Assembly: GCF_003797945.1 (NCBI RefSeq)
Contig: NZ_RKKU01000002.1
Span: forward strand, 1 to 64,000
Reading direction: 5' to 3'
DNA: 64,000 bases
Origin: Pseudomonas neustonica
Lineage (GTDB): Bacteria > Pseudomonadota > Gammaproteobacteria > Pseudomonadales > Pseudomonadaceae
This document shows positions 286 through 51,649 of the stretch, one piece after another. Every line of letters starts with the position of its first letter. Position 1 is the first letter of the stretch. The notes beneath the pieces were generated by a model that saw nothing but the letters and a program-made list of their open reading frames with translations, was not told where the DNA came from and did not search any database. A program made the translations under genes and the position numbers.

Positions 286-1296
286 CTACTTCTTGGCCTC
301 CGCAAAATTAGCCTGAATCCGCTGCAACAAATAATCAGCAGCAGAAATGGGCGGATACTTACCAGCCGGACTCTCAATCATCACCGTTTTGTTGGCCTGA
401 CAAAAGAACGCCATGCTGTAACGCGGACCGCGATACTCACCCGGCTTGGGCATGCGCACGCGGTGCAGAGTGGACTTGAGTTGATCGTCACTCCAGCGCA
501 TCAGCATGTCGCCAATGTTGCAGGTGATGATGTCGTCACGCGGAATCACACTGCTCCACTCGCGGTTGTCACCAGCACCCTCGGCATCTTTGCCGGGGCT
601 GACCTGCAGGCCGCCCTGGCCTTCTTTCTGGAACACCATGGTCAGGCAATCAAAGTCGGTGTGCGCGCCAGCGCGCCACAGGCTTTCATCCTGATCCTCT
701 TCCGGCATGGCGAGGTAGTGCAGCAGGCGCAGGGTGCTTTGGTAATCCGGCTGGCGCCGGTCGTGCGCTTTGGTGAAAAAGTCGCGCTCAAAACCCAGGC
801 GCTCGGCAAAGCACGACAACACCTGCATGCCCAACTGCCAGGCGCGGTATTCAAAGTCGAGCATGATGCGGTGAAACTCCGGCACGACCGTCTGGTTGGG
901 CCAGCGATCGTCCATATGCGGCAAGGTGATCTGGAAGGATTCTTTCTGGTCGGCGGTGCGGGTCGAGGGCCGTACCTGCGACATAAACTCCCAACCAGTA
1001 TTCAAGCCTTTTTTCAGCGCAAAGGCGGCTTTTTGCTCGTTGCTCAGGCTGAAAAAAGCTTCCGATAGCGCAAAGGCACTCTGCACCAGCTTGACGTCCA
1101 GACCATGGTTCACCAGCTGGAAGAATCCCACCTGGGTCGCGGCCTGCCAAAGCTGGTCGGTGATCTCGCTGCGGCGGTTTTCAAAATCACTGAGGTCGAT
1201 CAGCGGAATCTCGCGCTCGGTTTCCTTGCCCATGCCGCCAAAAGTGGTTTCCAGCTGCAGTTCTTTCAGTCCGTATTCTGGGGTGGTGGTTGTCAT
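286..1296 (-). CDS. 2-oxoglutarate/Fe(II) oxygenase, isopenicillin N synthase-like family
   Basis: A 336-residue protein of the isopenicillin N synthase / 2OG-Fe(II) oxygenase superfamily. The N-terminal DIOX_N-type region contains IPLIDLSDF and QVGFFQLVNHG. The iron facial triad is visible as HTDFD (His and Asp) and the later LHRV His; RYSMAFF supplies the Arg-x-Ser that binds the 2-oxoglutarate carboxylate. The start at 1296 is preceded by a GGAG ribosome-binding site. The substrate is unknown. Bacterial members hydroxylate, desaturate or demethylate small molecules, and the neighbouring 8-oxoguanine deaminase and nucleoside-type binding protein make a purine-related substrate plausible but unproven. 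The gene is transcribed away from the deaminase gene and has its own terminator. Confidence 0.85.
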   Translation of the reverse strand: MTTTTPEYGLKELQLETTFGGMGKETEREIPLIDLSDFENRRSEITDQLWQAATQVGFFQLVNHGLDVKLVQSAFALSEAFFSLSNEQKAAFALKKGLNTGWEFMSQVRPSTRTADQKESFQITLPHMDDRWPNQTVVPEFHRIMLDFEYRAWQLGMQVLSCFAERLGFERDFFTKAHDRRQPDYQSTLRLLHYLAMPEEDQDESLWRAGAHTDFDCLTMVFQKEGQGGLQVSPGKDAEGAGDNREWSSVIPRDDIITCNIGDMLMRWSDDQLKSTLHRVRMPKPGEYRGPRYSMAFFCQANKTVMIESPAGKYPPISAADYLLQRIQANFAEAKK

Positions 1297-1605
1297 CTGT
1301 GTTCTCCGAGTAGTGCCCTTGAGGGCGCAAGGGGCGGAGAATGGCGTGCGTGAAAGCGGGGTAATCGGAGGGTGAGGCAGCTGTGCCTGTCAGTCCGATG
1401 GGTCCGCCGCGCAGCGCGCATTGTCCGACCGTAAACTGAGCAATGACCTGGGGTGGTGCCCCCTGACAGCTTCTACTCACGTTGCCGAGGATAATCGCGC
1501 AACGAAATTTATCAAGCAGTTATCAGGCCAGCTCGACGTTTTCTGACGAACGTGGGCTTGCTGAGGCCTGCAGCCCTGCTTGCGCAGCGGCAACCGCTGT
1601 GCGGC
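1297..1605. other. Intergenic region between divergent genes
   Basis: No gene is supported here. The stretch holds the ribosome-binding site of the minus-strand oxygenase near 1300, a small GGGG/CCCC hairpin near 1450-1462 and a hairpin CAGCGG-CAA-CCGCTG at 1585-1599. No sigma-54-type promoter was found for the oxygenase gene. The right part of the intergenic region (1606-1873) carries the regulatory sites of the deaminase gene and is listed separately. Confidence 0.6.
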
Positions 1606-1713: not shown

Positions 1714-1730
1714 TTGGTGAGAAAATTGCT
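1714..1730 (+). promoter_or_regulatory. Putative sigma-54 promoter of the 8-oxoguanine deaminase gene
   Basis: TTGGTGAGAAAATTGCT has the obligatory GG (-24) and GC (-12) dinucleotides with exactly 10 nt between them, and the TTGCT -12 element. Transcription would start near 1741, giving a leader of about 133 nt. Confidence 0.55.
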
Positions 1731-3304: not shown

Positions 3305-3530
3305 TCAGCCTTTCGCCCTGATGGCGAGCGGGGGAAATGCTTGGCCATTTCCCCCTGCACCCCCTAGGCCACCCCAACTGCCCGGCCCTGCGGGTTCGCT
3401 GCGTTGCTCGGTCTGGCGGGGGCACTCGCAAACTCGGCGCTACGCACCTCAAACACCGCGAGCACCTTATCCCGCCAGTCCTGTGCTACTCGCCCGTGCA
3501 GACGGGGATTTGGGGTCCGTGCATTCTGGT
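3305..3530 (+). repeat. Inverted repeat, left arm
   Basis: This 226-bp arm is nearly identical to the reverse complement of 3922-4149. It begins TCAGCCTTTCGCCC, contains the signature TTTCGCCCTGATGGCGAG (3311-3328), then a hairpin with stem GGGGGAAATG/CATTTCCCCC. Similarity fades after 3530 and is weak to about 3551. Confidence 0.85.
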
Positions 3531-3586
3531 CGATCTTTTCGTGGTGTTGCTCACCCTCGCCCTAGCCATAGGCTCACTGAATGATC

Positions 3587-3610
3587 GTTCCCACGCTCCA
3601 GCCTGGGAAC
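3587..3610. repeat. REP-like palindrome, copy 1 (degenerate)
   Basis: Arms GTTCCCACGC and CCTGGGAAC form an imperfect hairpin of the GTTCCCACGC type, a motif widespread between Pseudomonas genes. Copies 2 and 3 at 3853 and 4213 have better symmetry. Confidence 0.65.
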
Positions 3611-3715
3611 GTGTGCGGCAATTGAGCAGAGGATTTTGGTTTCTGTGGTGTTAGTTACGCAGTGACGGACTGGGCTGCTCTTTAACCCGGCCTTGGCAGG
3701 TTGTTCTGATCAGCT

Positions 3716-3733
3716 TTTCGCCCTGACGGCGAG
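3716..3733 (+). repeat. Third, solitary copy of the repeat signature
   Basis: TTTCGCCCTGACGGCGAG differs from the copy at 3311 by a single base. It is followed by AGGGGGAAAGGCTGACC, a truncated version of the hairpin in the two long arms. It therefore looks like a decayed copy lying between them. Confidence 0.6.
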
Positions 3734-3852
3734 CAGGGGGAAAGGCTGACCAAAACAATTCACCGAAGCATGCATTTCCTCGCAGAGCTGTGGGCGCGAT
3801 CAGACTCTTGTGGTGCAAATGGCCGCAATGGACACGGGGCATCGAGGGCTGC

Positions 3853-3876
3853 GTTCCCACGCCGGAGCGTGGGAAC
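3853..3876. repeat. REP-like palindrome, copy 2
   Basis: Perfect arms GTTCCCACGC and GCGTGGGAAC flank a CGGA loop. The flanking sequence (GGGCTGC before, GATCACT after) is shared with copy 3 at 4213, so the two are direct duplicates of a unit larger than the hairpin. Confidence 0.75.
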
Positions 3877-3921
3877 GATCACTGCACAAGCAACGCTATG
3901 CAAGCAGCACCAGAAAAATCC

Positions 3922-4149
3922 ACCAGAATGCACGGACCCCAAATCCCCGTCTGCACGGGCGAGTAGCGCAGGACTGGCGGGAAATAGGTGCTCGCGGTGT
4001 CTGAGGTGCGTAGCGCCGAGTTTGCGAGTGCCCCCGCCAGACCGAGCAACGCAGCGAACCCGCAGGGCCGTGCAGTTGGGGTGGCCTAGGGGGTGCAGGG
4101 GGAAATGGCCAAGCATTTCCCCCTGCTCGCCATCAGGGCGAAAGGCTGA
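3922..4149 (-). repeat. Inverted repeat, right arm
   Basis: This is the opposite-orientation partner of 3305-3530, separated from it by about 390 bp. It includes the signature at 4126-4143 (minus strand) and the GGGGGAAATG hairpin. A few substitutions separate the arms, so the duplication is fairly recent or kept similar by gene conversion. Confidence 0.85.
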
Positions 4150-4212
4150 TCATGCCAATCTGCTGCGTGGTTGAGCATGTGCACGTGATGGACGCAGAGC
4201 ATCCGGGGCTGC

Positions 4213-4236
4213 ATTCCCACGCCGGAGCGTGGGAAC
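4213..4236. repeat. REP-like palindrome, copy 3
   Basis: Arms ATTCCCACGC and GCGTGGGAAC flank a CGGA loop. It differs from copy 2 only at the first base of the palindrome, and the surrounding bases are similar. Confidence 0.75.
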
Positions 4237-4261
4237 GATCACTATCCAGTATGTAGCCCAT

Positions 4262-4291
4262 AAAAAAACCCGAACCAAAATCCGGGTTTTT
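4262..4291 (-). terminator. Terminator of the BMP-family gene
   Basis: AAAAACCCG (4264-4272) pairs with CGGGTTTTT (4283-4291). On the minus strand the stem is followed by a T run, placing it about 65 bp past the stop of the minus-strand gene at 4356. The T-rich flanks on both sides would allow bidirectional use. Confidence 0.8.
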
Positions 4292-4355
4292 CACTACCTG
4301 CGAATCCCACTGACAGCCACGTGATGAGCGCGCTGTTAGCAAGAGCACATCAAGA

Positions 4356-5426
4356 TTACTGCGGAATAGTGGCCGTCATACCCTCAACGTACCAATCCAT
4401 ACCCGCCAACTCCTCATGTGTCATCTCCACACCATCAGCAACGCGAACGGTACCGCTCTGATCCTTGATCGGACCAGTGAAGGGGTGGAACTCACCGCTA
4501 CCGATAGACGCGATCATGGCATCAACCTTGGCGCGTTGTTCAGCGGTCAGCTTGTCACTGATGGATTCAATCTTGATCACGCCATCGTGGATGCCGCCCC
4601 AATAGTCAGCGGACTCCCAGGTGCCGTCCATTACGTCCTGCACGCTCTTGATGTAGTAAGGACCCCAGTCGTTAACCACTGACAACAGGTGCGCTTCAGG
4701 AGCAAAGTGGCTCATGTCCGATGCTTGACCTACACCCCATACGCCGCGTTTCTGCGCAGCCAAAAGAGGAGCTGGGCTATCGGTATGCTGCACGATCACG
4801 TCCACGCCCTGGTCGATCAGCGTGTTGGCGGCATCAGCTTCCTTGGCCGGGTCGAACCAGGTGTTGACCCATACCACTTTCATTTCTACATCCGGGTTGA
4901 CCGCACGCGCGCCCATGAATGTGGCGTTGATGTCGCGGATCACTTCCGGAATCGGGAAGGAGGCGATGTAACCGATGGTGTTGCTCTTGGTCACCATACC
5001 AGCGGCGGTGCCGGTGACGTAACGGCCTTCATAGGTAACTGACAGGTAAGTGCCCAGGTTGTCGGCCTGCTTATAGCCCGTAGCGTGCATAAAGGTTTTA
5101 TCAGGGTAGTCTGCGGCAACGCGCGCAGTCGCGTTCATGAAACCGAAAGACGTGGTGAAAATGACGTCATTACCGGCCTGCGCCAAGCGACGGATGGTAC
5201 GCTCGGCATCAGCGCCTTCGTTGACGTTCTCAACGTAGGTGGTCTGTACCTTGTCGCCGAAGTGGGCTTCGAGCTCCTTGCGGCCCTGATCGTGCTGGTA
5301 GCTCCAGCCGTGGTCACCAATGGGACCAACGTAGACAAAACCCACTTTTAATGGATCTTCCGCTGCCGTTACCTGCATGGGCAGCACCAGTGCGGCTGCC
5401 AGTGCGAGAGTGCGTTTCAAACTCAT
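4356..5426 (-). CDS. BMP-family ABC transporter substrate-binding protein (purine/nucleoside type)
   Basis: A 356-residue periplasmic binding protein of the basic membrane protein (BMP/PnrA) family. It has a Sec signal peptide (MSLKRTLALAAALVLPMQVTA, cleavage before AED) and the family opening KVGFVYVGPIGDHGWSYQHD. The segment GTAAGMVTKSNTIGYIASFP is also typical. BMP proteins capture nucleosides or other purines for an ABC importer. No ATPase or permease gene lies beside it, so partners must be encoded elsewhere or it works as an orphan receptor. A sigma-54 promoter and an NtrC-like dyad upstream, and the nearby 8-oxoguanine deaminase, point to purine nitrogen scavenging. Confidence 0.88.
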   Translation of the reverse strand: MSLKRTLALAAALVLPMQVTAAEDPLKVGFVYVGPIGDHGWSYQHDQGRKELEAHFGDKVQTTYVENVNEGADAERTIRRLAQAGNDVIFTTSFGFMNATARVAADYPDKTFMHATGYKQADNLGTYLSVTYEGRYVTGTAAGMVTKSNTIGYIASFPIPEVIRDINATFMGARAVNPDVEMKVVWVNTWFDPAKEADAANTLIDQGVDVIVQHTDSPAPLLAAQKRGVWGVGQASDMSHFAPEAHLLSVVNDWGPYYIKSVQDVMDGTWESADYWGGIHDGVIKIESISDKLTAEQRAKVDAMIASIGSGEFHPFTGPIKDQSGTVRVADGVEMTHEELAGMDWYVEGMTATIPQ

Positions 5427-5497
5427 GGGTACTTCTCCTGGGATCTAGTTATCGGCGACCGCCACACTTGCGTTGAGAACGGCGGATACAAGCTTGC

Positions 5498-5513
5498 AGC
5501 AAAAAGCTGGCCA
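5498..5513 (-). promoter_or_regulatory. Putative sigma-54 promoter of the BMP gene
   Basis: On the minus strand TGGCCAGCTTTTTGCT has GG-N10-GC and the TTGCT -12 element, a close match to the sigma-54 consensus. The start site would be near 5486, about 60 nt before the ATG at 5426. Confidence 0.6.
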
Positions 5514-5617
5514 TTTGTTCAGGAAATGACAAAAAAAATTCACCTGCCCTGATAGCATGCCGTTAGCCTGACTCTACTGCACCCGACCACGTTGGCAGGC
5601 AAAGCATCATGCGATCG

Positions 5618-5640
5618 GCCCGCACTATTATAGTGCGGGC
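5618..5640. promoter_or_regulatory. NtrC-like dyad upstream of the BMP gene
   Basis: A perfect palindrome with 10-bp arms, GCCCGCACTA and TAGTGCGGGC, around TTA. Its core GCACT-ATTAT-AGTGC matches the NtrC consensus GCACY-N5-RGTGC at every defined position. Its centre is about 143 bp upstream of the predicted start site. It also lies 24 bp past the stop codon of the neighbouring minus-strand gene, but it has no T run on that strand, so a terminator is the less likely reading. Confidence 0.55.
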
Positions 5641-5663
5641 AAGCAATTCATGCACCGCAGCGA

Positions 5664-6713
5664 TCAGCCATGCGCCAACGGCAGCAAGCCTCCGCGCAGG
5701 CTGGCAACCTGCTCCAGGCCCTGTTCCCGCAGGATCGACGTTGCCAACGCCGAGCGCCGGCCGGAGCGACAGAGGGTAACCACCGGAAGGTCGGTCGGCA
5801 CTTCTGTGACGCGCTGGCGCAGCTGATCCAGCGGGATTTGCAGCGCCGTGCCGAGCACCTCCGGCAGCTCACCGGGAATCACCTCTCCGGCCTGCCGCAC
5901 ATCCAGCAGTGTTACCCGATCCGCATGCAACAGCAGCCACTCAGAGCCGATCTCTGGCACACCGGCATAGGTGACGCGCAGGTCCTCGGCCCAGTTCGGT
6001 TCGGGCGGCACCTGACCATCTGCCGGGCAACCGCTGCGCAGATTGGCTGGCACTGCCTCGTCGATCTTCTTCGGATGCGGCAAGCTCATGGCCTGCATGT
6101 AGCCGACAAAATCTGCTTCATTGGCACTACCACCTACTCTGGCGTTATAGCTGCGCTCTTCGCCAATGCTGCTTTGCGTGCGGCCGTTGTAGTCGTGCGC
6201 CGGGTAAACCTGGCAGTCATCCGGCAGGCTGAACAGTTGCTCGGTGATCGAATGAAAAAGAGTGGCCGCATTGCCCTGCTGAAAGTCACTACGGCCACAG
6301 CCCCGAATCAATAGCGCATCACCGGTAAATACCATCGAATGGTCGGCCAGCACATAGCTCATACAACCGTCGGTATGACCGGGAGTGGCCCGCGCCTCCA
6401 GGCTCACGCCGGCAACGCCAAACGTCTGACCATGGGATAACGGCAGATCGAGGTGCTCTGCGTTTATAACGGCCGCAGAAGCGATCAGGCAGCCGGTTTT
6501 CTGCTTAAGCAGCCAGGCCGCAGTGATGTGATCGGCGTGGGCATGTGTGTCGACGACCAGCTTGAGTTGTAAGCCCAGTTCACGGATCAGTGAGAGATCG
6601 CGCTGAGCCTGCTCAAACACCGGATCAATCAATAGCGCTTCTCCGCTGGTAGTGTCACCCAGCAGGTAGGTGTAGGTTGATGACGCGGCATCGAACAATT
6701 GACGAAAGACCAT
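5664..6713 (-). CDS. Persulfide dioxygenase-rhodanese fusion (metallo-beta-lactamase fold)
   Basis: A 349-residue two-domain sulfur enzyme. The N-terminal metallo-beta-lactamase fold carries the THAHADH metal site and ATPGHTDG, as in ETHE1-type persulfide dioxygenases. The C-terminal rhodanese domain (from about residue 255) has the active-site loop CRSGRRS. Such fusions (Blh/CstB-like) oxidise glutathione or cysteine persulfide to sulfite and transfer sulfane sulfur, detoxifying sulfide. I place the start at the ATG at 6713 (MVFRQLFDAASS), where family homology begins. A longer frame would translate the AT-rich promoter region. Confidence 0.85.
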   Translation of the reverse strand: MVFRQLFDAASSTYTYLLGDTTSGEALLIDPVFEQAQRDLSLIRELGLQLKLVVDTHAHADHITAAWLLKQKTGCLIASAAVINAEHLDLPLSHGQTFGVAGVSLEARATPGHTDGCMSYVLADHSMVFTGDALLIRGCGRSDFQQGNAATLFHSITEQLFSLPDDCQVYPAHDYNGRTQSSIGEERSYNARVGGSANEADFVGYMQAMSLPHPKKIDEAVPANLRSGCPADGQVPPEPNWAEDLRVTYAGVPEIGSEWLLLHADRVTLLDVRQAGEVIPGELPEVLGTALQIPLDQLRQRVTEVPTDLPVVTLCRSGRRSALATSILREQGLEQVASLRGGLLPLAHG

Positions 6714-6735
6714 GGCAAAGTACCTCTGGGCTATT

Positions 6736-6768
6736 ATTAACGAAAATATAATATATAAAAATATAGAT
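6736..6768 (-). promoter_or_regulatory. AT-rich promoter/operator of the sulfur gene
   Basis: A run of almost pure A/T (about 6743-6766, with TATAATATATA and AAAAATATAG) lies 25-55 bp upstream of the start at 6713. ArsR-type persulfide sensors of the BigR family are known to bind AT-rich dyads upstream of such genes. No regulator gene is present in the window, so this is only a candidate operator. Confidence 0.3.
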
Positions 6769-6847
6769 TGTTTGCTGGTCACGTGCAAGCGGCAAAACGC
6801 CACAGGTCTCTAGCTACATGAAATACCGACGATATTGCTTCGTTTTC

Positions 6848-50074: not shown

Positions 50075-51358
50075 TTAAACACTACCCATGGCACTGGCGC
50101 GACGGGCCTTAACACCGGCAACCACCGTTTCCAGCAAGGCATAGCTCAATGCCGCCACCAGCACACCGACCAAGGGAGCGACCCAGGCAGAGGTGTAAGC
50201 CACCAGGGAACCGATGGCATACGCACTAAGCCCCACGATATTAAAGGCAGGCAACTTGGCGCTGGCGATATCGGGGTACTCGCCGCGGTAACGCACAAAG
50301 AAGTTACCCATAATCACGCCGCCCACCGGCGGAATAAAGGTACCCAGCAATACCAGGAAGGGAATCAGCCATTCATACATCCCGAGCACCGCCAGCAGCG
50401 TTCCTATGGCAGCGCCCACTAGGGTGATCGTCTTGCGGCGACGCGTACGCAGCATGTTGCAGCCAGCCACCGCAAAGTTGTAAACCGTATTGTCCTGCGT
50501 GGTCCACAGATTCAGAAACAGCATCAGAATACCCAGCGTGGCCAACCCCTGCGCCACCATGATATCGACGATATCTGCTTGCTGATAAACCAGTGCGCCC
50601 AATGCGCCGACCAGGGTCATCAAGCCGTTGCCCAGAAAGAACGCCGCCAGGGTAGCCAACACGGCCGTCTTGCCGGAGCGAGCAAAGCGCGTCCAGTTGG
50701 TCGCTTGGGTTCCGCCGCTGACAAAGGTGCCGAACACCAGGGTAATCGCCGCCGCCACGCTCAAATCACTGGTCGGAGTAATGCTGGTCAAACCGGCCAG
50801 ACCGCCTGCGTCGGAGGTGGCAATAAACATGCTCACCGCGATCAACACAATCATCGCCGGAACCGCAATTCGCGACAGCAACTCAAGTCCGCGATAGCCA
50901 ATAAAAGCGGTGACACAAAAACCGAAACCAAAAATCACCATCAAGGGCAGGGTAGCCCCCTCGGGTAAGCCAGTCATTTTCACCAGCAGCAGCGCCATGG
51001 TAGCGGTACCCCAGGCGTACCAGCCAATTTGGGTAAAACCAAGAATGAAATCAGATAATTTGCTACCAATATCGCCAAAAGCGTAGCGACTCATTAACGC
51101 GGTGTTCATGCCGGAGCGCGCCGCTATATAGCCAAGAATCGCGGCGTAGATGCCAAGCAGCAGGTTACCTGCCAGCAGGACCAGCATCAGGGTAGAAAAA
51201 TCGAACGCGGTGCCAACGGTGCCGCCGGCCCACATGGTCGCGGTAAAAAAAGTGAAGCCCAAAAGCACCAGCCCCATGGACCACAGGCTTTTTCTGGCCG
51301 AAGCCGGTACCGCGCTGAGCGGATAGTCCTGCTCTTGCGCCGTGGTGTTGTTCGTCAT
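50075..51358 (-). CDS. codB: Cytosine permease
   Basis: A 427-residue membrane protein of the nucleobase:cation symporter-1 family with about 12 TM segments. DYPLSAVPASARKSLWSMGLVLLGFTFF, then GNLLLGIYAAILGYIAARSGMNTALMSRYAFG, is typical of CodB, and the family's TNWTRFA and LWTTQDNTVYNF segments are present. It imports cytosine for CodA. The ATG at 51358 follows AGGAGAG 8 nt upstream; an ATG 21 bp earlier is less likely. It heads codB-pucR-codA behind a sigma-54-type promoter. Confidence 0.92.
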   Translation of the reverse strand: MTNNTTAQEQDYPLSAVPASARKSLWSMGLVLLGFTFFTATMWAGGTVGTAFDFSTLMLVLLAGNLLLGIYAAILGYIAARSGMNTALMSRYAFGDIGSKLSDFILGFTQIGWYAWGTATMALLLVKMTGLPEGATLPLMVIFGFGFCVTAFIGYRGLELLSRIAVPAMIVLIAVSMFIATSDAGGLAGLTSITPTSDLSVAAAITLVFGTFVSGGTQATNWTRFARSGKTAVLATLAAFFLGNGLMTLVGALGALVYQQADIVDIMVAQGLATLGILMLFLNLWTTQDNTVYNFAVAGCNMLRTRRRKTITLVGAAIGTLLAVLGMYEWLIPFLVLLGTFIPPVGGVIMGNFFVRYRGEYPDIASAKLPAFNIVGLSAYAIGSLVAYTSAWVAPLVGVLVAALSYALLETVVAGVKARRASAMGSV

Positions 51359-51439
51359 CGTTACTCTCCTGTCGTTCAATCTATCTGCAGCCGAGCGAGC
51401 ATCGCAGCAGCCTGCGGTTCAGTGGATCAGCAGGGTTTT

Positions 51440-51455
51440 TGCAATGGCTATGCCA
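51440..51455 (-). promoter_or_regulatory. Putative sigma-54 promoter of the cod operon
   Basis: On the minus strand TGGCATAGCCATTGCA matches the sigma-54 consensus closely: GG-N10-GC, TGGCA and TTGCA elements complete. The start site would be near 51430, about 70 nt before codB. Confidence 0.65.
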
Positions 51456-51498
51456 GCACCTCTCTTTCGGCTAATAAGACCCGATCGGCCCTGAATAT

Positions 51499-51519
51499 TT
51501 TTGTGCATTTTGCACAAAA
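51499..51519. promoter_or_regulatory. Inverted repeat operator candidate, proximal
   Basis: Perfect 9-bp arms TTTTGTGCA and TGCACAAAA around TTT, centred about 80 bp upstream of the predicted cod start site. The PucR-type regulator encoded in the operon is a possible ligand. Confidence 0.5.
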
Positions 51520-51580
51520 CCTCCAGTGCAACAGATTCTATGTGCTCCGAAAAAGCGCTCTCGCCAAGCGGTTCTTGGCT

Positions 51581-51602
51581 AACTGCACCAGCATGTGCAG
51601 TT
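51581..51602. promoter_or_regulatory. Inverted repeat, distal activator site candidate
   Basis: Perfect 8-bp arms AACTGCAC and GTGCAGTT around CAGCAT, centred about 162 bp upstream of the predicted cod start site. It resembles an NtrC site but its GCAC/GTGC spacing is 6 nt, not the usual 7, so another regulator may bind it. Confidence 0.4.
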
Positions 51603-51649
51603 AAATAGGCAGTAAAAAGCCGCGTTAAACAAAAAAAATCAGCGGCTAA

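Follow-up and report, generated by a model that had tools for sequence, protein, structure and literature searches.

What switches on an "orphan" BMP-type substrate-binding protein gene in a genome such as that of Pseudomonas neustonica, and which partner, if any, does its product serve? In the window (the whole 64,000-nucleotide stretch of DNA analysed), the gene and its upstream region comprise the following features:

4356..5426, minus strand: BMP/PnrA-like substrate-binding protein (closest solved relatives 3s99 and AtzT, 6pi5)
5498..5513, minus strand: sigma-54 (-24/-12) promoter TGGCCAGCTTTTTGCT of the BMP gene, from pattern and conservation across BMP loci
5507..5522, no strand assigned: RutR-like palindromic candidate operator CTGAACA-AA-TGGCCAG (minus-strand reading), overlapping the -24 element
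5618..5640, no strand assigned: 23-bp perfect palindrome around the dyad of the next line, a hairpin lacking a U-tract, about 24 bp past the stop codon of the upstream gene
5622..5636, no strand assigned: NtrC-type dyad GCACTATTATAGTGC (GCACT-N5-AGTGC), a presumed enhancer centred on 5629, at about -142
5664..6803, minus strand: MBL-fold and rhodanese gene upstream of the BMP gene, start codon uncertain

The sigma-54 match that the original prediction had placed upstream of the BMP gene is indeed present at 5498-5513 on the minus strand: the 16-mer shows the GG-N10-GC spacing and the TGG...TTGC frame, lies 87 bp before the BMP start (ATG at 5426), and puts the predicted +1, as placed from the -12 GC, at about 5487. 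TGGC-N7-TTGCW, however, was found at 223 places genome-wide versus 54 in the control (about fourfold), and a match to it alone is weak evidence for a promoter; what makes the BMP site convincing is its conservation at orthologous BMP loci. A TGG-N8-TTGC site lies no further than 260 nt upstream in 66 of the 96 BMP loci compared (the first 110, minus 14 that were duplicates or truncated; minus-strand loci were turned before the promoter, palindrome and dyad comparisons). The 30 loci for which no such site was found within 260 nt upstream, a distance reaching less far above the true start wherever the BMP match began inside the protein (at about residue 20), include 11 alphaproteobacterial ones (by title or genus), as well as all three Neptunomonas loci. 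The genome carries rpoN, and, from the motif and its conservation, the promoter of the BMP gene is very probably sigma-54-dependent.

The full GCACY-N5-RGTGC dyad of the original prediction is likewise there, at 5622-5636, and its proposed position 143 bp upstream of the predicted start holds for the transcription start (about 142 bp), albeit not for the ATG. NtrC dyads usually lie about 100-160 bp upstream, a range into which this one falls. By chance, about 0.15 full dyads would be expected per window, and the whole 4.33-Mb genome holds 34 versus 10 for the reversed-pattern control; a sigma-54-like site (at least 9 of 11 letters) follows downstream, towards the gene, at seven of the 33 others, which, with the window included, makes eight of the 34 places. 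One of these seven is at a GlnK-like gene (named by eye) and inside another predicted ORF, and another precedes a BMP paralogue (PF02608) on contig C36 of the same genome (locus L131 of G000), where a full dyad at 3351-3365 and the sigma-54 site TGGCATGATCAATGCT are followed by the paralogue at 3541-4650 and then by permease-, ATPase- and hydrolase-like genes (also named by eye).

Across 57 loci, the mean best dyad score was 10.28 versus 8.09 for letter-shuffled sequences, with none of the 500 shuffled sets scoring as high; these shuffles keep letter content only, whereas those behind the single-locus p-values keep dinucleotides. At p < 0.05, the latter singled out the dyads of 8/16 Halopseudomonas, 7/18 Marinobacter, 4/14 Pseudomonas-type and 10/18 other loci, and gave p = 0.065 for the dyad of the window itself. 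The dyad distances are also phased (R 0.39 at 10.5 bp, reached in 0 of 500 shuffled sets, and 0.48 at 11 bp, the better-fitting period), a phasing that shared ancestry inflates. Sequence comparison thus supports NtrC as a group signal made up of individually degenerate sites, and the genome encodes both ntrC (TIGR01818, 783 bits) and ntrB (NR(II) model, 398 bits), each exceeding its cut-off.

Because single dyads are degenerate and the one in the window folds as a hairpin, some weight is left to a terminator alternative, named already in the original prediction as what would refute it, according to which the dyad would be the 3'-end hairpin/terminator of the upstream sulfur gene (the MBL-fold/rhodanese one) and the sigma-54 promoter would depend on a different activator or on sites not seen here. 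The hairpin does lie about 24 bp past the stop codon of that gene, its GC-rich arms extend beyond the NtrC consensus, and its folding z-score is -3.25 (-6.85 in L002, where the hairpin is longer, -1.96 in L007 and -1.51 in L004); a U-tract, however, is absent and no terminator was detected in 5300-5900. Moreover, the locus of the closest named relative (L001) keeps the sulfur gene and has lost the hairpin (z +0.85), yet retains CGCACTACAATGGTGCA at the same distance, 116 bp, while in L088, whose 1.5-kb flank gave no match to the sulfur gene, the L004 dyad is kept at the same place (118 and 117 bp), and NtrC-like dyads recur in L008, L010, L016 and a number of Marinobacter loci, for all of which the search turned up no sulfur gene. 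All this makes the terminator alternative unlikely.

An NtrC role is therefore the likelier one for the dyad of the window, although both roles may coexist. NtrC control of the BMP gene, as originally predicted, is borne out by the dyad signal of the group and by the genome encoding ntrB, ntrC and rpoN, less so by any single site, and it is quite likely, judging by the sequences, that NtrC acts at this very dyad. Published work agrees with the NtrC model in part: a P. stutzeri ntrC mutant was impaired on uric acid, cytosine, thymine and uracil (PMC8443478), and in Burkholderia cenocepacia the xanthine dehydrogenase and a urate-oxidase cluster are described as joint NtrC/sigma-54 targets, the ntrC mutant nonetheless growing better on uric acid (PMC5491218).

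The original prediction did not contain the palindrome that lies over the -24 element, nor did it note that this palindrome recurs at xdhA, ABC and deaminase promoters or that an ABC core, the probable partner of the BMP, is encoded elsewhere in the genome. In 52 less-redundant loci, the letters 9 to 3 bp before the TGG read YTGA-N-CA (T in 48, G in 47, C in 36 and A in 41 of the 52), and the -24 element itself reads TGGYCAG, with C-A at +4/+5 in 50 and 51 loci, respectively. The sigma-54 consensus for this element is TGGCACG, that is, A-C at +4/+5. On its best axis, the consensus block CTGAnCA-NN-TGGYCAG forms 4.31 of 7 complementary pairs, whereas all axes tried average 1.76 (locus selection had fixed TGG and TTGC), and it resembles the E. 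coli RutR box, TTGACCA-NN-TGGTCAA. The RutR operator is described as a palindrome of about 16 bp (PMC10891134). The RutR-type palindrome is only partial at the BMP and xdhA promoters, the left half-site being imperfect (CTGAACA) in those of Halopseudomonas BMP genes; at xdhA, the palindrome sits on the -24 element in all 13 of the Halopseudomonas loci examined.

Searching for the operator by itself led nowhere, as the strict pattern TTGWCCA-NN-TGGWCAA with two mismatches gave 84 places genome-wide versus 110 in the control, and only a composite including the -12 element proved specific. This composite 16-mer, TGGYCARNTTTTTGCW, occurs exactly at 146 places in 74 of the 198 family genomes (which, belonging to one family, are not independent samples), versus a total of 12 for the reversed-pattern control. 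Of these places, 59 lie before the close BMP gene (at 84-135 bp), 42 before the gene of an ABC ATPase (at 57-89 bp) and at least 17 before xdhA (at 88-322 bp; a lower bound, since the xdhA coordinates covered no more than 22 genomes). Genomes with a close BMP (E <= 1e-139) number 71, including G177, whose gene is split over two contigs; the exact composite is absent before the BMP gene in 12 of them, and, of the 127 genomes lacking a close BMP, 13 contain it, at 14 places in all. The window's own genome has it at two places only, namely, the BMP and xdhA promoters. With the last letter dropped, the resulting 15-mer has a third place inside the xdhA start, in the opposite direction (L165, 10114-10128; also in L197), which may be either a coding coincidence or a second operator.

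Marinobacter salarius (L017 and L020) has two BMP copies, both with the composite promoter (one letter is changed in L017, TGGCCAAG), each with a TetR copy some 13-17 kb away, which suggests a duplication of the cluster; a third TetR copy contains an in-frame stop. A search of the literature limited to titles and abstract openings, with subscription papers mostly outside its reach, returned no description of this composite. Judged from these sequences, the composite sigma-54/RutR-like promoter, marking a purine-uptake and xanthine dehydrogenase regulon, looks like a new variant; the individual components are of known kinds, and the fusion of operator with promoter, together with the regulon, looks like the new part.

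Why would a binding protein share its promoter type with an ATPase and a xanthine dehydrogenase encoded elsewhere? The BMP (PF02608, 196.9 bits) is 97% identical to its closest named relative, from H. sabulinigri, its genome being Halopseudomonas-like (G000, with the gene on contig C12), and it matches 3s99 (402 bits) and AtzT (386 bits) over nearly the full length. Four of the seven AtzT contact positions are identical (S97, F98, E165 and W194), and the other three (Y45 = W, N218 = H, N220 = D) bear the same letters as 3s99, a structure reported with adenine modelled (PMC6834077). As 3s99 (adenine) and AtzT (guanine) both match over nearly the whole length, the ligand is likely a purine.

Contig C45 carries xdhAB divergently from an ABC ATPase and two permeases, which are followed by a RutR-like TetR gene, an amidohydrolase and a 2OG dioxygenase; relatives of the BMP were searched for on this contig and none was found. 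The ABC ATPase is present in 70 of the 71 close-BMP genomes versus none of the 127 others (the best seven first-look candidates per genome were scored, which makes the absences soft), the sole exception lacking a match, G040, being an assembly of about 240 contigs. The ABC and TetR genes share one contig in 66 of the 69 genomes having both, 55 of them within 25 kb. This co-occurrence of genes, on which the pairing rests, makes it highly probable that the "orphan" BMP serves the ABC core on contig C45. Elsewhere, a guanine deaminase and UraD neighbour L142, and a xanthine permease neighbours the Pseudomonas-type L214.

Which protein would then read the palindrome? The C45 TetR scores 187.5 bits against TIGR03613 (RutR), that is, half of the cut-off of 368, and is therefore not RutR itself, while the RutR protein encoded on contig C14 reaches 344.3 bits against the same cut-off. 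At 36% identity to RutR, the C45 TetR keeps K52, K62, W77, W167, Q171 and Q179, with Y97 replaced by F; K52 and K62 are described as DNA contacts and the others as pocket residues (PMC10891134), and the kept pocket residues would suit a nucleobase ligand. Among the matches listed, a close C45-type TetR occurs in 15 of the 16 BMP genomes of the genus and in none of the 17 without a BMP. TetR relatives at E <= 1e-40, with RutR-class proteins counted in, occur in at least 147 of the 198 family genomes (at most 15 candidates were scored per genome, which renders absences soft), and one at E <= 1e-30 is present in each of the 32 genomes examined from Marinobacter and other relatives.

Either TetR could bind, since RutR, encoded on C14 of the same genome, has a comparable palindrome at rutA: the rutR-rutA spacer holds CGGACTAACTGGTCCG, which is close to the xdhA palindromes. 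The palindrome might then be read by this canonical RutR of the rut locus, the whole being a pyrimidine/RutR regulon with the C45 TetR acting elsewhere. Five genomes speak against such a reading, as G058, G169, G173, G177 and G181 have, among the matches listed, a single TetR match at E <= 1e-40, which belongs to the C45 type (in G169 and G181 alone, the scoring took in every first-look candidate), and they still keep the composite before the BMP gene (5/5) and before xdhA (4/4 fetched), which sets back canonical RutR as the sole binder; in addition, the genomes of the genus with the weaker TetR class only (G004, G119, G134, G144 and G149) have no close BMP. The canonical RutR is thus a rather improbable reader, and the C45-type TetR is, on the co-occurrence and residues given above, the probable regulator of the palindrome. 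As a separate observation, the rut pyrimidine locus on C14 (L139 of G000, with RutA and RutR) has its own BMP paralogue and ABC-like genes (the latter named by eye), and a 2OG dioxygenase adjoins rutR there, the palindrome CGGACTAACTGGTCCG lying between rutR and rutA.

Does the palindrome call for a regulator at all? At eight of the 13 Marinobacter loci in which the deaminase gene was found, a palindrome forming 6 or 7 of its 7 pairs ends 4-5 bp short of a sigma-54 site that is separate from it; the filter, run over L011-L032, asked for at least 13 of 14 consensus letters and at least 6 paired positions of 7. It let through one more match (L021, 4198), which lies away from deaminase promoters. 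In 13 Halopseudomonas ABC promoters, a weaker YTGATTR-NN-TGGTCAG with 3-5 of 7 pairs lies 28-29 bp downstream of the -24 T, and the sigma-54 sites of these promoters, TGGCAAGCAAATTGCT, have no consistent left half-site (1-4 of 5 key letters kept, L202 alone reaching 4). As the palindrome shifts while the promoter stays put, sigma-54 preference alone is a poor explanation, and a plain, repressor-free NtrC/sigma-54 promoter, whose flank conservation would reflect a lineage-specific flavour of the -24 element, is most unlikely in view of these displaced palindromes, of C-A being conserved in place of the consensus A-C and of the ABC sites lacking a consistent left half, even though the core 16-mer matches sigma-54 well and similar sites are common in the genome. 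That some palindrome-binding regulator uses the site overlapping the -24 element can, from this conservation, be proposed with considerable confidence. An operator-like palindrome, CTGACCATCTGGACAG (L161, 5255-5270), was also noted about 70 bp above a sigma-54 site that precedes a urease accessory gene (named by eye).

The original prediction went on to count three nitrogen-controlled loci in the window, namely, those of the BMP, the deaminase and cod, for the latter two of which the following features were found:

286..1296, minus strand: 2-oxoglutarate/Fe(II) dioxygenase, divergent from the deaminase
1515..1530, minus strand: sigma-54-like site TGGCCTGATAACTGCT of the dioxygenase, with related sites in L009 and L143
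1627..1642, no strand assigned: degenerate operator-like palindrome CTGACCACTTGCACCA in the deaminase/dioxygenase divergent region
1715..1730, plus strand: sigma-54 site of the deaminase, TGGTGAGAAAATTGCT / TTGGTGAGAAAATTGC, with TGG at 1715, also found in L142, L008 and L010
1874..3232, plus strand: amidohydrolase (8-oxoguanine deaminase-like), convergent with the BMP gene
51440..51455, minus strand: sigma-54-like site TGGCATAGCCATTGCA before codB (50075-51379), 61 bp before its predicted start

Conserved sigma-54 sites back the BMP and deaminase loci of this trio, the deaminases of L009 and L143 having a different site (TTGGAAAGGAAATTGC or similar), while cod has a predicted site only. Upstream of codB (window 51480-51620), the palindromes TTTTGTGCATTTTGCACAAAA and ACTGCACCAGCATGTGCAGT were seen, the second being, by eye, NtrC-like with a spacer one base short. 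Dioxygenases of the 2OG/Fe(II) kind (DIOX_N type) recur beside transport loci: apart from the one in the window (286-1296), they were seen in L160 (7021-7977), L139 (9375-10382) and L145 (9323-10288).

How does the arrangement compare with known systems? The atz regulator, AtzR, belongs to the LysR family, whereas the candidate regulator here is a TetR protein, and, unlike in the atzRSTUVW operon, the BMP gene and the ABC core lie apart on the chromosome. The likeness consists in the full-length match of the BMP to AtzT and in the sigma-54 promoter predicted here, atzRSTUVW of Pseudomonas sp. ADP being reported as sigma-54-dependent and induced by nitrogen starvation, with AtzT binding guanine at a KD of 110 nM (PMC6834077). 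The E. coli rutA-rutR spacer was bound by the RpoN holoenzyme in genomic SELEX (PMC8743547), and that system shares with the present one a RutR-family repressor (a candidate here) and a palindrome of about 16 bp (PMC10891134), yet E. coli rut is a pyrimidine pathway. As far as the published descriptions go, P. aeruginosa PA1504 is a RutR/YcdC-type TetR gene near purine-degradation genes, still being investigated (PMC12694930), and thus, compared by description only, similar to the C45 TetR gene, while the RutR regulogs of RegPrecise, computed in 68 genomes with taxon-specific motif variants, are listed under pyrimidine catabolism (PMC5343134) and may, going by this description, overlap with the present regulon.

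Taken as a whole, purine uptake and xanthine dehydrogenase are likely under NtrC/sigma-54 control and gated by a RutR-like repressor lying across the promoter. The BMP would supply the binding protein for a purine-uptake ABC transporter whose genes are split between two places, and phosphorylated NtrC at the dyad (about -142) would most likely activate its sigma-54 promoter under nitrogen limitation. A RutR-family TetR, most likely the one on C45, would bind a site of the idealised form CTGACCA-NN-TGGTCAG, in which the -24 element makes up the right half, and would thereby exclude sigma-54 RNA polymerase from the promoter until a purine or related nucleobase releases it. Because the polymerase would be blocked until this release, transcription would need both nitrogen hunger and the substrate. 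We infer protein binding, repression, the ligand and expression, while the conservation of promoter and palindrome, the shared targets and the gene co-occurrence come from comparison; for purine-released repression of the BMP promoter in particular, the sequences tip the scales modestly in favour. The broadest reading, for which the case stands in even balance, is that a purine-sensing RutR paralogue, with its operator fused to the -24 element, might form an AND gate over a purine-uptake/xanthine-oxidation regulon kept from Pseudomonas-type genomes via Halopseudomonas and Marinobacter to Amphritea-type relatives, even with the transporter genes separated.

If true, this would yield a testable regulon from a single promoter, complete with a predicted operator and with the BMP gene, the ABC core, xdhAB and the deaminase as targets. 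It would also predict the class of ligand to which a widespread RutR-like TetR responds, name the partner with which an "orphan" binding protein works, and show plainly how a sigma-54 promoter can have a repressor site within it.
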